From Treponema sp. J25 (GTDB lineage: Bacteria; Spirochaetota; Spirochaetia; Treponematales; Breznakiellaceae), in the NCBI RefSeq assembly GCF_004343725.1, contig NZ_PTQW01000005.1, positions 62,001 through 126,000 of the forward strand: a stretch of 64,000 bases of DNA. The letters run 5' to 3'. The notes beneath the pieces were generated by a model. The model had not been told where the DNA came from and did no database searches. It worked only from the letters and a program-made list of their open reading frames with translations. The position numbers and the translations under genes are program-made. Positions 39,686 to 44,888 of this stretch are shown piece by piece (position 1 is the stretch's first letter; every line of letters begins with the position of its first letter).

Positions 39686-40048
39686 ATGAAACTCTTAGTT
39701 TTTGTCCTCAATAATGAAGAATTCCTTGAAGAAGTCCTTGAGGCCTACGTAGAGGCGGGTATTGAGGGGGCCACAATCCTTGATTCAGAGGGAATGGGAC
39801 GGTTTCTTACCTATGAGGTTCCCCTTTTTGCGGACTTCCGTGAATTTATGAAGGGAAATAAACCCTACAATAAAACGATCCTTTCGGTAGTTCGGGATGA
39901 GTCGTGTATCGAACGGCTTGTTCCTTTAGTAGAACATGTGGTAGGTTCCCTTTCGGAAAGGGGCAGGGGTATCATGTTTACGGTGCCCGTCGATTGGGCT
40001 ACGGGGCTTTCCCCGACGATTCCTCCTTCGGGGGAGCAACCTTCATAA
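39686..40048 (+). CDS. P-II-like small protein
   Basis: A 120-residue protein with a ferredoxin-like pattern similar to nitrogen-regulatory P-II proteins: KLLVFVLNNEEFLEEVLEAYVEAGIEGATILDSEG at the front (given here in two parts as it runs from residue 2 to 36) and RGIMFTVPVDWATGL near the end, where P-II has its last strand. The T-loop Tyr51 region and ATP-binding B loop of classical GlnB are not recognised, so it is at most P-II-like. It is 64 nt before an EIIA-like gene and in line with the Mrp antiporter genes, which suggests a role in sensing for ion transport. GGAGG precedes the ATG. Confidence 0.5.
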   Translation: MKLLVFVLNNEEFLEEVLEAYVEAGIEGATILDSEGMGRFLTYEVPLFADFREFMKGNKPYNKTILSVVRDESCIERLVPLVEHVVGSLSERGRGIMFTVPVDWATGLSPTIPPSGEQPS

Positions 40049-40112
40049 TGAGGTATAATACCGGCAAGGAGGGTGCAGCGGCGGAGTGTAATAATCCAGG
40101 AGGGAGAGACAT

Positions 40113-40568
40113 ATGGTAGAACTAAAACAGGTGTTTTCACCAGAAGATGTGGAAGTTGATTTTGTGTGTAACAATAAAGAAGAGGCCATTTCCTATTCAG
40201 TAGAGGTAATGGCAAGAAATCATCATATTCCAGATCCCCAGCGCGTGGTTGCTACGATGCTGGATCGGGAAAAACTCACTTCTACCGGTATTGGAGAGGG
40301 AATTGCCGTCCCCCATGGTCTGTGTGATGGCCTTTCTCAAACCATGATGGTAGTTATTCGCCTAAAGAACCCCATAGAGTACGGGGCTCCCGATGAGAAA
40401 CCGGTGGATCTGCTTTTTTGTATTGCCGGTCCCCGGGATAATACGGCCTATCATTTACAGCTTCTGTCTAAACTTGCTCGAATTCTCCACAATGAACAAT
40501 TTCGCACGGCCCTTCGAGAAGCCTCCGACAGGGAATCCCTTTGGAAGCTTATTGTTTCCCGGGAGTAA
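40113..40568 (+). CDS. PTS EIIA (fructose/Ntr type) domain protein
   Basis: 151 residues, PTS_EIIA_2 fold. The phosphorylatable His is in GIGEGIAVPHG; KNPIEYGAPDEKPVDLLFCI and HLQLLSKLARIL are also typical. No HPr, EI or sugar permease is nearby, so a regulatory EIIA-Ntr-like role is more likely than sugar uptake. In enterobacteria EIIA-Ntr controls potassium transport. Here the gene ends 2 nt before mrpE, so it is almost certainly cotranscribed with the cation antiporter. GGAGGGAG precedes the ATG. Confidence 0.8.
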   Translation: MVELKQVFSPEDVEVDFVCNNKEEAISYSVEVMARNHHIPDPQRVVATMLDREKLTSTGIGEGIAVPHGLCDGLSQTMMVVIRLKNPIEYGAPDEKPVDLLFCIAGPRDNTAYHLQLLSKLARILHNEQFRTALREASDRESLWKLIVSRE

Positions 40569-40570
40569 CG

Positions 40571-41089
40571 ATGAACAAATTGGTTCGCCTCCGATGGAAC
40601 ATCATTCGTGTGACGATAACGACTATCTTTTTGTTTTCTCTCTGGCTTTTGTTTTCCGCATCCCTTGAGCCCTACCATATGATAGTGGGTTTTGCCGGTT
40701 CCAGTGTGGTAGCCCTGTTTACCTATCGGGTGTTTATTGAAGACTGGGAAGCGGGTAAACACAGCGTGGTTCCCCGGGGGATACCTCTCTTAGGGTATCT
40801 TTTTTGTATGGTGTGGTGGTTATATACGGCAAGTTTCGCTGTGGCCCGGGCGGTGATAACGGGGAAGGTACAACCCCGGATCGTTTATTTTCGGTCGAAG
40901 TTACGCTCCGATCTTGCCCGGGTGGTGCTTGCCCACTCGATTACCTTTACTCCGGGTACCATGGTTCTAGAGCTGGATGAGGACCATTATGTTGTCCATT
41001 GGCTCTTTGCTACCAGCCGTCACTCGAAGGAAGCGGGGGATCAGATTAAAGGAAAGATGGAAGGTCTTCTGCGAAGGGTATGGGTATGA
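40571..41089 (+). CDS. mrpE: Mrp/Mnh antiporter subunit E
   Basis: 172 residues with two N-terminal and one middle hydrophobic segment (LFSLWLLFSASLEPYHMIVG; LLGYLFCMVWWLYTASFAVA), then the family motif LARVVLAHSITFTPGTMVLEL. MrpE is a small membrane subunit of the multi-subunit cation/proton antiporter. GGGAG precedes ATG 40571, preferred over the upstream in-frame start at 40541. It starts 2 nt after the EIIA-like gene and overlaps mrpF. Confidence 0.88.
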   Translation: MNKLVRLRWNIIRVTITTIFLFSLWLLFSASLEPYHMIVGFAGSSVVALFTYRVFIEDWEAGKHSVVPRGIPLLGYLFCMVWWLYTASFAVARAVITGKVQPRIVYFRSKLRSDLARVVLAHSITFTPGTMVLELDEDHYVVHWLFATSRHSKEAGDQIKGKMEGLLRRVWV

Positions 41090-41352
41090 AAGAAATGGTG
41101 CTCCTTATTTCTGAGGGATGTCTCGCCGTGGGGATCCTTATAGCGATAGTTCGTGTCCTGCGAGGCCCCCGGGGCTCTGACCGTCTTGCGGCTCTTTCGG
41201 TGATTTCTTCATTTGTTCTGGCCCTTCTGGTGTTGTTTGGTGTATATGATGGGCGGGTCCTCTATCTGGATGTGGCCCTGGTATACGATATTTTTGGATT
41301 TCTGGGCATCCTTGCTATTTCCCGCATAATAGGGGAAAAGCAAAAGGAATAA
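41080..41352 (+). CDS. mrpF: Mrp/Mnh antiporter subunit F
   Basis: 90 residues, three helices, motif RVLRGPRGSDRLAALSVISSF and LDVALVYDIFGFLGILAISR, as in MrpF/PhaF. It overlaps mrpE by 10 nt. Two close ATG codons (41080, 41086) are possible starts. Confidence 0.88.
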   Translation: MGMKEMVLLISEGCLAVGILIAIVRVLRGPRGSDRLAALSVISSFVLALLVLFGVYDGRVLYLDVALVYDIFGFLGILAISRIIGEKQKE

Positions 41353-41365
41353 ACAGGAGTGGACC

Positions 41366-41413
41366 ATGAAATGGAACCGATTGCTCCTTTGTCCGGGAAC
41401 CTTCTATTTCTAA
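41366..41413 (+). CDS. Possible 15-residue small protein between mrpF and mrpG
   Basis: AGGAG lies 6 nt before the ATG of a 15-codon frame (MKWNRLLLCPGTFYF, then TAA). It is in the 74-nt gap of an otherwise tightly overlapping operon. It may be a translated coupling peptide or a real small membrane subunit; chance is also possible. Confidence 0.3.
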   Translation: MKWNRLLLCPGTFYF

Positions 41414-41426
41414 TGAGGTCGATATC

Positions 41427-41729
41427 ATGGTTGAAATACTATGGACCATAGGGGTGATTCTATTAACGGTAGTTGGCGGAGTGTTTACCCTGCTTGGTGC
41501 CCTGGGGCTCCATCGCTTTAAAGATCCCTACGTTCGGCTCCAGGTTTCGTCTCTCGGGTCTACCACAGCGCCCTTTACCTATTTCCTTTTGGCCCTGTTA
41601 CTAGCGGAGGACTGGCAAAGCAGGTTACGGGTACTCATTATCCTTTTATTTTTTCTGGTTTCTTCTCCTACCACCACCCATATTATTGGCCGCTATGCCT
41701 GGAAATCAGAAGGGAAAATAGGCCGATGA
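41427..41729 (+). CDS. mrpG: Mrp/Mnh antiporter subunit G
   Basis: 100 residues, three helices, motif GGVFTLLGALGLHRFKDPYVRLQ followed by APFTYFLLALLL, typical of MrpG/PhaG. It overlaps the next gene by 4 nt (ATGA). Confidence 0.88.
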   Translation: MVEILWTIGVILLTVVGGVFTLLGALGLHRFKDPYVRLQVSSLGSTTAPFTYFLLALLLAEDWQSRLRVLIILLFFLVSSPTTTHIIGRYAWKSEGKIGR

Positions 41730-41959
41730 CGGTTATACTCCTTGTTGCGATTCTGGGGCTTTCGATATATGCGCTGATATGCAAAGATCTTCTGTATGGG
41801 ACTATTGCCCTTTCGGTGGTAAGTGTCCTTACGGCCCTGCTTCTGTATATCCTTCATGCCCCTGATGTGGCAATTACAGAAGCCGCCGTTGGGGCGGGAG
41901 TTTCGACGGTGATATTTGTATGGGTGATTCGAAAAACCCAGCGAAGGGAGGAGACATGA
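41726..41959 (+). CDS. MbhD-like (MrpA C-terminal, DUF4040) subunit
   Basis: 77 residues, three helices, ALICKDLLYGTIALSVVSVL and HAPDVAITEAAVGAGVSTV. The PDVAxTEAAVGAG motif is the hallmark of the MbhD segment, which in MrpA forms part of the C-terminal region. Here it is a separate protein, as in archaeal Mbh and in simple Mrp modules. It overlaps both neighbours. Confidence 0.85.
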   Translation: MTVILLVAILGLSIYALICKDLLYGTIALSVVSVLTALLLYILHAPDVAITEAAVGAGVSTVIFVWVIRKTQRREET

Positions 41960-42723
41960 AGCGATATATCATCGGTGTGGCTTCCCTCGTGATGATAGGG
42001 GTGGTGGTATTCCCCATCGTGCTTTTTTCGGCGGAGTGGCCTGGTAGTGCCCGGGATTTTCTTGCTCAGTCCGCGGTCCCTGAGACGGGGGCTACCAATG
42101 TGGTGGCTTCTATTTACTTAGGCTATCGCTTATACGATACCCTGGGAGAGACCATGGTATTACTGGCAGCTCTTGTCGGGTCGGTATACCTTATGACTGA
42201 TCATGGAAAAAAGAAAGAACATTTCCCGGGGACCGCTCATGATTCTTTTTCTTTGTCCGTCCCGGGGGAAAATATCCGTAAACAGTATAAAAGGGTCCAG
42301 CGGACAGAGGTTCTTTCTCTTACGGTAGGGAAATTGAGCCCCGTAGTACTTCTTTTTGGGTGGTACGTTATGTTTTTTGGGCATCAATCGCCGGGAGGCG
42401 GTTTCCAGGGCGGCGTGGTGGTGGCTTCAGGTATTACCTTTTTACTCATGGGGCGCCGACTTTCACAGGAGATAGGGGTGCTCTTTCAAAATACGGTTCC
42501 CATTCAAAGGATAGAAGTGGGAGCCCTTGTGGCTATTCTTCTTCTTATAGGAAGTGGCCTCCTGCGGGGTCAGGGATTTTTTTCCAACCCCTTTGTAGGG
42601 GCAGAAATGTCGATGCCCGTTACCTACATCGTTCTTTTTAATATAGCCATCGGTATAAAGGTAGGAGCTGGTCTTGCGATCCTGATGATACTGATGCTCC
42701 GGGGGACGGTACGTGATACTTGA
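41956..42723 (+). CDS. mrpB: MbhE-like and MrpB domains fused
   Basis: 255 residues. N-terminal part (1-100) resembles MbhE: ETGATNVVASIYLGYRLYDTLGETMVLLAALVG. The C-terminal part (about 120-255) is MnhB/MrpB: VLLFGWYVMFFGHQSPGGGFQGGVVVASG, and NIAIGIKVGAGLA. In many genomes these are two genes. GGGAGGAG precedes ATG 41956. It overlaps mrpC by 11 nt. Confidence 0.87.
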   Translation: MKRYIIGVASLVMIGVVVFPIVLFSAEWPGSARDFLAQSAVPETGATNVVASIYLGYRLYDTLGETMVLLAALVGSVYLMTDHGKKKEHFPGTAHDSFSLSVPGENIRKQYKRVQRTEVLSLTVGKLSPVVLLFGWYVMFFGHQSPGGGFQGGVVVASGITFLLMGRRLSQEIGVLFQNTVPIQRIEVGALVAILLLIGSGLLRGQGFFSNPFVGAEMSMPVTYIVLFNIAIGIKVGAGLAILMILMLRGTVRDT

Positions 42724-43075
42724 GCAACTTCTTTTAGGGATGTTTTTTTTAGCAGGGTTTGGGGGCCTTATCTTTTGTAAGAACCTGATAAAAAAGGTCT
42801 TTGCCCTTTCTGTTATGAATTCGGCGGTTATTTTGCTTTTTATGGTAGCAGGGGATCGAATTGGGAAGCGGGCTCCCCTGGTACTCGATCCACAGGAAAT
42901 ACTTCTCTTACAGGAGATGGTGGATCCCCTTCCCCAGGCCCTCATGCTCACCGCCGTAGTTGTGGGGCTCTGTGTCACCGCCTTTGCCCTGGTCCTGGTG
43001 TATCGTCTCTATCGGGAGTACGGTACCCTCAATATCGATATCATCTATGAAAGGATACGGGATGCATCCCATTGA
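42713..43075 (+). CDS. mrpC: Mrp/Mnh antiporter subunit C (NuoK-like)
   Basis: 120 residues, three helices: NLIKKVFALSVMNSAVILLFMVAG, then VDPLPQALMLTAVVVGLCVTAFALVL, the conserved MrpC/NuoK region including the PQALMLTAIVI-type motif. Starts with GTG 42713 inside the end of mrpB and overlaps mrpD by 14 nt. Confidence 0.9.
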   Translation: MILEQLLLGMFFLAGFGGLIFCKNLIKKVFALSVMNSAVILLFMVAGDRIGKRAPLVLDPQEILLLQEMVDPLPQALMLTAVVVGLCVTAFALVLVYRLYREYGTLNIDIIYERIRDASH

Positions 43076-44888
43076 TTGGAATATTGCTCTCCTTATGTTG
43101 CCCCTCGGAGGGTTGAGCATCGCTCTTTTTGCAAAAACCCTGGGGAATAGCAGAGTTCGCGATGGATTAGATTTTCTTGCAGGAATAGGGGGCATTGTTC
43201 TCCCCCTGGTACTTCTTGGTCCCCTCTATGTGGTAATAAAAGAAAAACCCTGGTATCCCTTTGTGGGACAGCAACCAGACCTCTTAGGGATTCAGCTTTC
43301 CTTTGATGGTCTTTTTTGGCTTTTAAGTCTTCTGGGGCTCATAGGTTCCTTTCTTTCCTGGCTCTATACCCGTTCTACGGCATTAAAGGGGCCGGTTTTT
43401 ACTGCCCTTTTGTGTCTCCAAACCTTTGGCCTTATAGCAACGGCGGCCTCGGCGGACCTTTTCAACCTGTTTGTCTGTTTTGAGATTCTCGGCATTGCTT
43501 CGTACGTGCTGGTAGCCCTGGCAGGGAAAGGAAGGGCCTTTTTAGCAAGCTTTAGTTACATGATGGTAAGTTCTGCCAGCATGTTGTTCTTTCTTCTGGG
43601 GGTCTTTGGGCTCTATAAAGTAACGGGTCGTCTTTCCTATAGCGGGATAAGTCAGGTCCTTGCGGGGGGAATAAGCGCCGAATCGGTGTGGATGGTGCGA
43701 CTTTCGGTGATCTGTATTGTAGGGGCTACGGCGGTGCGGATTGCCGTTCTGCCGGTCTATGGGTGGCTGCCTGAGGCCCATGCCTCGGCTCCCCATGGGG
43801 TTTCGGCAGTTCTCTCGGGGGTACTCATTAAGGTGCCCCTTTTTGCGTTGGGGCGCTTTTTGTTCACCCTGCAACAGGATGTGCCATTCCTTGCCCCTGA
43901 TGTGCAGCGGCTTACCCAGATTCTCGGTACCGCTGGAACCTTTACTTCCCTGGTGGCCACGGTGCTTTCCCTTTGTCAGCGGGATGCGAAGCTTATATTA
44001 GCCTATTCCTCTATCAGCCACATTGGGTATATCGTCGCTGCCTGGTCCCTCGCTTCCCCCCTTGGGTTTGTAGTGGCCTATCTCCATGCCTTTTCCCATG
44101 CCATGGCAAAGGGTATCCTCTTCCTTACCGTAGGAACCGTCTCAGACAGGCTTGGAGAACGGAATGTGGATAAGGCCCGTGGGGGGCTTAGCCAGGGTTG
44201 GTTTTTGTTTGGGGCTTTCCTTGTGGGGGTCCTTTCCCTCGCGGCCCTTCCACCCCTTGGAGGATGGGTAAGTAAGGGGGCGGTTGCGGAGCTCTACAAA
44301 GGGGGGTGGCAATATACGATTCTTTTTATAAGTTCCTGGGGAACGATGGCGGCCATGCTTCGTCTCTCCCAATTGTTCTGGCATCCCTTTTCTGGAAAGT
44401 CTTTTTTCCCCTCTTTTCTTAAAAAACCTTTTCCAGCTTTATCTTCTCTGGAACCTGTTTTCCCCTCTTCCTCAGGGGGGGCATCGATTTCGGGGGGTAA
44501 ATCGGCTTCTGGTGAAGTTTCCCAGGATGCTGATGCTTCCCAGGGGAACGGGAAACAACGCTTACCCCGGGGGACACTATTTTCAATAACTCTATATGGA
44601 CTCCTTTGTATCGCGAGCGGTGTTTTTGCCCACCCCTGGATTTCATTGGTTACATCCCTTTTATCTCCTACCCCCGCGGCCCATGAAAAGGGCATAACCA
44701 TCCCGCAGCCCTCTGGTTCTGCTTTTATTACGATAGTTGCGGGGGCCCTCCTGTTTGGACTATCCCGCACCAGAAGGGGAGGGCAACTCCTGCAGCTTAT
44801 CCGAAACCGTCCCCAGAGCTTTGAAGGCCTTGTGGGGGCCTTCAGTGTGGCCATAGGCGCTCTCGCAGCCCTCTTACTTATTCCCTGA
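43062..44888 (+). CDS. mrpD: Mrp/Mnh antiporter subunit D (NuoL/M/N family)
   Basis: 608 residues, about 14 helices, proton-channel family shared with complex I. The key Glu helix reads DLFNLFVCFEILGIASYVLVAL; the Lys helix is in LPVYGWLPEAHASAPHGVSAVLSGVLIK; the broken helix region is YSSISHIGYIVAAWS. A Ser/Gly-rich insert (about 465-510) is unlike most relatives. It is the only large antiporter-like subunit in this operon; the MrpA N-terminal half is missing. AAGGA precedes ATG 43062. Confidence 0.92.
   Translation: MHPIDWNIALLMLPLGGLSIALFAKTLGNSRVRDGLDFLAGIGGIVLPLVLLGPLYVVIKEKPWYPFVGQQPDLLGIQLSFDGLFWLLSLLGLIGSFLSWLYTRSTALKGPVFTALLCLQTFGLIATAASADLFNLFVCFEILGIASYVLVALAGKGRAFLASFSYMMVSSASMLFFLLGVFGLYKVTGRLSYSGISQVLAGGISAESVWMVRLSVICIVGATAVRIAVLPVYGWLPEAHASAPHGVSAVLSGVLIKVPLFALGRFLFTLQQDVPFLAPDVQRLTQILGTAGTFTSLVATVLSLCQRDAKLILAYSSISHIGYIVAAWSLASPLGFVVAYLHAFSHAMAKGILFLTVGTVSDRLGERNVDKARGGLSQGWFLFGAFLVGVLSLAALPPLGGWVSKGAVAELYKGGWQYTILFISSWGTMAAMLRLSQLFWHPFSGKSFFPSFLKKPFPALSSLEPVFPSSSGGASISGGKSASGEVSQDADASQGNGKQRLPRGTLFSITLYGLLCIASGVFAHPWISLVTSLLSPTPAAHEKGITIPQPSGSAFITIVAGALLFGLSRTRRGGQLLQLIRNRPQSFEGLVGAFSVAIGALAALLLIP

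Follow-up and report, generated by a model that had tools for sequence, protein, structure and literature searches.

Genes for two known signalling families, a PII-like protein and a PTS EIIA protein, are associated with cation/proton antiporters, and this association is real, conserved and widely reused. Its meaning is likely regulatory; the mechanism is one that we infer from better-known systems. We describe the association in a window of 64,000 nucleotides from Treponema sp. J25 (contig NZ_PTQW01000005.1, positions 62,001 to 126,000). Here the PII-like and EIIA genes precede a seven-gene Mrp operon (40571-44888, + strand). On balance, we favor the view that the two proteins form a dedicated two-input, post-translational regulator of the Mrp antiporter encoded downstream.

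The operon and its proteins

The locus consists of the following genes:

39686..40048, + strand: PII-like protein, 120 aa (Pfam P-II 6e-5, homologues, AF2 model)
40113..40568, + strand: EIIA (PTS_EIIA_2, PtsN/fructose-type), 151 aa (Pfam 1e-38; 1a6j match)
40571..41089, + strand: mrpE (Pfam MNHE 3.6e-33)
41080..41352, + strand: mrpF (Pfam MrpF_PhaF 5.1e-13)
41427..41729, + strand: mrpG (Pfam PhaG_MnhG_YufB 1.6e-17)
41726..41959, + strand: MbhD-like subunit, counterpart of the C-terminal region of MrpA (Pfam MbhD 5.5e-19)
41956..42723, + strand: MbhE-like and MrpB fusion subunit (Pfam MbhE 4.4e-7, MnhB 1.5e-18)
42713..43075, + strand: mrpC, GTG start (Pfam Oxidored_q2 1.5e-22; NCBIfam subunit C models)
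43059..44888, + strand: mrpD, the sole antiporter-type (Proton_antipo_M) subunit of the genome (Pfam 1.3e-44)

The EIIA stop codon (40566-40568) lies 2 nt before the mrpE ATG at 40571. The PII-like stop codon (40046-40048) and the EIIA ATG at 40113 are separated by 64 nt, a gap that contains the SD-like GGAGGGAG. These positions and gaps are as given in the preliminary description of this DNA. The operon is flanked upstream by gpmI and downstream by a gene for a SpoIIE-type phosphatase, both on the - strand. A promoter and terminator scan gave nothing in excess of shuffles, and Rfam matched two tRNAs in the window and nothing else.

Taken alone, the match of the PII-like protein to Pfam P-II (PF00543) is marginal (23.8 bits with a cut-off of 25; E 6e-5). 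Its homologues match the same family in 70/70 cases (E<=0.1; best 4.6e-8). The AlphaFold (AF2) model (pLDDT 83, pTM 0.71) has the b-a-b-b-a-b ferredoxin-like fold with a T-loop between b2 and b3, and it matches PII structures (Foldseek probability 1.00, E 3e-5; VIA-align Z 10.6). AlphaFold and Foldseek thus confirm a PII fold for the predicted structure. Residues 34-62, the T-loop region, are the best-conserved part of the protein (mean 0.91 versus 0.58 for b3-a2), as would be expected of a region with a constant partner or ligand. The YRGxEY T-loop stretch typical of canonical GlnB/GlnK, with its uridylylation tyrosine, is absent: in the alignment to 2eg1, the region ltyevPlfadfkefmkGnkpynk stands opposite IYRGTEYVIDFLPK.

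The EIIA protein matches Pfam PTS_EIIA_2 clearly (E 1e-38, 133 bits with a cut-off of 27), and among PDB entries it matches PtsN (1a6j, E 1.7e-22). Against the PtsN equivalog TIGR01419 it scores 104.5 bits, under the cut-off of 138.7, and hence falls outside that equivalog. The phospho-acceptor His68 is present in 75 of 76 orthologues and His114 in all 75 that align there, even though the orthologues average just 35% identity to the window protein. The genome also encodes EI and HPr, and therefore the relay to EIIA can run. It contains eight EIIA_2 copies, so other partners are possible, which casts some doubt on the dedication of this EIIA to Mrp.

Two other EIIA genes of the same genome also lie close to ion transport. 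One encodes a 711-aa protein that combines Na_H_Exchanger with an EIIA domain at its C-terminus (L200:3228-5360, G000:C14). The other is a stand-alone EIIA gene (L203:3323-3796, G000:C19) directly upstream of V-type-ATPase-like genes, among which a V_ATPase_I protein was confirmed. The latter looks like another EIIA adjoining an ion pump, in this case a putative V-type ATPase operon.

All Mrp subunits (E, F, G, MbhD, MbhE+B, C and D) score above their Pfam cut-offs. MrpA is absent: a search of the whole genome finds one Proton_antipo_M (PF00361) protein, the MrpD of the window. With B, C, D, E, F and G present and MrpA absent, the antiporter is a Group 3 Mrp (CPA3) of A-less layout, a predicted Na+(K+)/H+ antiporter. 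Its subunit set and order are the same as in the stand-alone Mrp of Pyrococcus furiosus (mrpEFGBB'CD, PMC8415708), which is likewise Group 3, without mrpA and with an energy input that the paper terms unknown. PII and EIIA genes accompany the window's Mrp, whereas the passages on the P. furiosus Mrp mention none. The window MrpD (43059-44888) is about 610 aa long overall and has a long C-terminus with extra hydrophobic segments and, in the window's species, a low-complexity insert. We considered this extension as a mark of regulated pumps and rejected it, because two MrpDs from loci without the PII and EIIA genes have a similar one.

Conservation of the gene order

We scanned a PII alignment against 84,980 species genomes and obtained 103 relatives, of which 80 were kept as public loci. 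Three of these (L034, L079, L105) were excluded because their contigs end too early, leaving 77 informative loci. In 71 of them the order is PII, EIIA, mrpE, followed by the later Mrp genes as far as the contigs reach. In two more (L062 and L081) PII stands directly upstream of mrpE with no EIIA between, which is a reason to doubt the two-input reading. The remaining four (L071, L101, L102, L103) have PII and EIIA without mrpE. Overall, mrpE lies about 1 kb downstream of PII in 73 of the 77 loci and, in a sample of 393 Spirochaetota genomes, adjoins it in 23 of the 25 that carry this PII type; the two sets share several assemblies, and hence the counts are not independent.

The preliminary description had proposed such a neighborhood survey as a check on its reading. 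The survey did not refute it: the gene order recurs throughout Spirochaetota and is found in several other phyla. Among its cultured carriers are Gracilinema caldarium, Alkalispirochaeta alkalica and Breznakiella homolactica. Chance adjacency can be rejected on these counts. The gaps between PII and EIIA, with starts taken mechanically, are mostly -8 to 18 nt across loci, which is consistent with translational coupling of the two genes; the 64 nt of the window are at the long end.

In a tree of MrpE, 70 PII-linked rows and the unlinked L207 form one clade (SH-aLRT 95), and the linkage labels need 2 changes versus 23 in shuffles. PII-linked MrpE is thus one clade with one loss, a single origin that holds for the Spirochaetota sample, the source of all unlinked rows. 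The loss is L207 (5571-9800), whose Mrp alone in this clade has neither PII nor EIIA beside it and whose MrpE branch is 1.59 long versus a median of 0.25. An Mrp that exists without both genes is a reason to doubt the regulator reading. We also considered that every spirochaete Mrp might carry the pair. This was rejected, as MrpE copies outside the clade lack it; in these unlinked loci, a pair of MrpD-type subunits or a single reading frame of double length is common. Within the PII-linked clade lie rows labelled Aerophobetes, Fermentibacterota, Fibrobacterota and Myxococcota, which suggests that the operon may have been transferred as a whole.

Alternatively, the gene order could be a chance or frozen neighborhood without functional meaning. 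The data come largely from one phylum, and in close relatives gpmI and the SpoIIE-type gene still flank the locus. However, the flanking genes vary between loci while PII-EIIA-Mrp persists, bins labelled as the four other phyla carry it too, and a second architecture exists with CPA2-type antiporters. The survey already contradicts a frozen neighborhood, and we regard it as extremely improbable.

A few relatives are arranged differently. In Myxococcota, most PII-like matches of this type have no adjoining EIIA or antiporter (L295-L300); two of these genes have a protein-kinase-like gene on one side and a gene for a membrane protein on the other. At L218:6452-17166, PII and EIIA are followed by an HTH_17-EIIA fusion and then by MrpD-like subunits that resemble a membrane hydrogenase-type complex.

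Pairs and fusions with CPA2-type antiporters

We considered that the pair might be exclusive to Mrp and rejected this, because related pairs adjoin CPA2-type antiporters. Profile-profile comparison relates the Mrp-linked and CPA2-linked PII alignments (E 9.6e-37). Searching Spirochaetota with the CPA2-linked alignment, together with a check of neighborhoods, gave 31 non-Mrp PII-like matches (E<=1e-9). A CPA2-type gene adjoins the PII-like gene in 26 of these 31 loci, where CPA2 means a match to Pfam Na_H_Exchanger and a purpose-built HMM, a label that does not rigorously separate CPA1 from CPA2. Among the 26 are three-gene EIIA-CPA2-PII operons (for example L154, L156 and L250-L257), EIIA-PII fusions (L139-L144, L146, L150, L258-L263) and PII-CPA2 gene pairs (L151, L152). 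Four of the 31 loci have EIIA and PII genes with no antiporter beside them (L147-L149, L264), and one (L145) is broken.

Eight of the spirochaete proteins are fusions of about 275 aa each, in which EIIA forms the N-terminal and a PII-like domain the C-terminal part. An antiporter gene adjoins each of these eight fusions (Pfam Na_H_Exchanger, as checked in a subset). In the AlphaFold model of one (pLDDT 83), a linker of low confidence connects the EIIA part to a part with the b-a-b-b-a-b order.

The pair may have joined Mrp twice. In bacterium UASB270, a second Mrp operon (L288:2239-7231) contains an EIIA-PII pair between MbhE and MrpB, and its PII falls outside the main Mrp-linked PII group in a short, long-branched tree. 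Here the pair was apparently joined to Mrp independently. In other treponemes, a 215-aa distant PII-like protein adjoins a 493-aa membrane protein (L016:12402-14527), a further pair of a PII-like and a membrane protein.

The same observations allow a variant of our reading, in which the signal runs along a chain from the PTS through EIIA and PII to the antiporter. PII alone would act on the antiporter, and EIIA would modulate PII by phosphorylation. PII is far better conserved than EIIA (most orthologues 65-75% identical versus the EIIA mean of 35%), two loci retain PII with Mrp and no EIIA between, and the fusions place both domains on one chain. The CPA2-EIIA fusion of the window's genome, with no PII in the same protein, points the other way, since it makes a direct tie between EIIA and an antiporter possible. 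We think the chain rather doubtful, though of the alternatives the one most worth considering.

PII-EIIA pairs without an adjoining Mrp (L013/G028, L014/G016, L071, L101, L102, L147-L149) are a reason to doubt that the pair regulates Mrp. At L014/G016 the pair lies between gpmI and a SpoIIE gene as in the window, with no Mrp genes at the site. Such pairs without a transporter would also be expected if the two proteins controlled expression or another shared process, such as the PTS or K+ balance, and the antiporter genes belonged to the same physiological regulon; EIIA-Ntr proteins do have several targets (PMC13104625). However, Pfam scans show no DNA-binding domain in the EIIA-PII proteins, and EIIA is covalently fused to CPA2 antiporters. 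A shared regulon is also hard to square with two unrelated antiporter families and a separate insertion inside an Mrp operon. We consider it unlikely.

A proposed two-input model and its precedents

The regulator reading is supported by the conserved order, the MrpE clade, the short gaps, His68 and His114, and the presence of EI and HPr. It is further supported by T-loop conservation, the EIIA-PII fusions, the CPA2 operons, the UASB270 insertion and the CPA2-EIIA fusion. We propose that the PII-like protein and EIIA act on the assembled Mrp complex, after translation. EIIA would receive phosphate from EI through HPr at His68 and so report PTS phosphorylation, that is, the PEP/pyruvate and sugar-uptake state. 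A putative PII-like trimer would sense a small metabolite, with an adenine nucleotide as the likeliest candidate, via its conserved T-loop region. Jointly the two would determine how fast Na+(K+)/H+ exchange runs. Unphosphorylated EIIA would most likely be inhibitory, as E. coli PtsN is for YcgO. CPA2-type antiporters would be served by this pair too, whether it is encoded by two genes or fused into an EIIA-PII polypeptide; hence the pair would be a reusable module and not a part of Mrp. Binding to the antiporter, the identity of the ligand, the direction of control and the role in the cell are all inferred.

The preliminary description had proposed a regulatory module that couples energy or nitrogen state to Na+/H+ exchange. 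Its regulatory link to cation/proton exchange finds good support in the conserved order and in the CPA2 pairs and fusions. Nitrogen state as the signal finds no support: the EIIA does not reach the PtsN equivalog cut-off, and the YRGxEY stretch is missing from the PII-like protein.

In E. coli, ptsN is not known to lie in an operon with the gene of its antiporter target. Unlike E. coli PtsN, the present EIIA scores under the equivalog cut-off, and its gene lies with those of Mrp. In its unphosphorylated form, PtsN binds the K+/H+ antiporter YcgO and inhibits it (PMC11808508). As in the present pair, this is an EIIA with a phosphorylatable His and a monovalent cation/proton antiporter as target, and control is at the protein level, as we propose here. 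However, that system has no described PII partner, and YcgO is a CPA1 antiporter with a C-terminal RCK/CorC region. The kdpABCDE operons of alphaproteobacteria that contain a ptsN copy likewise place an EIIA-Ntr gene in an ion-transport operon, but with a K+-ATPase and no PII (PMC13104625).

We know of no trimeric Mrp complex. PII-regulated transporters are described as trimers (PMC10710835), and thus PII control of Mrp should be viewed with caution. GlnK and SbtB plug their transporters by T-loop insertion (PMC10710835, PMC8352866). GlnK-AmtB and SbtB-SbtA resemble the present locus in that a PII-fold protein is encoded with a transporter and the T-loop is the expected contact. Their targets are trimeric ammonium or bicarbonate transporters, and no EIIA is involved; the present PII-like protein has a different T-loop sequence and a multi-subunit antiporter as its putative target. 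From the precedents of PtsN-YcgO, GlnK and SbtB, EIIA would carry the PTS state and PII the metabolite state to the antiporter.

Control of transporters by PII and by PtsN is known already. We found no description of EIIA and PII with Mrp or CPA2 in the open-access literature searched, and the Mrp papers searched name no protein that regulates the activity of Mrp. The pair has the look of a reusable and, as far as we know, undescribed controller of the pumps for cell pH and salt. Whether it is a general, transferable two-sensor cassette of spirochaetes and some other bacteria that couples the PTS and a nucleotide signal to structurally unrelated antiporters seems to us evenly balanced. If it is, this would be the first case in which PII controls antiporters that are not trimers, and PTS phosphorylation and PII, two classical signalling systems, would meet at one target. 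Mrp complexes are related to complex I, and a conserved cytoplasmic sensor pair in the same operon would offer a handle on how Mrp is switched. The cassette is carried by cultured, non-model spirochaetes.
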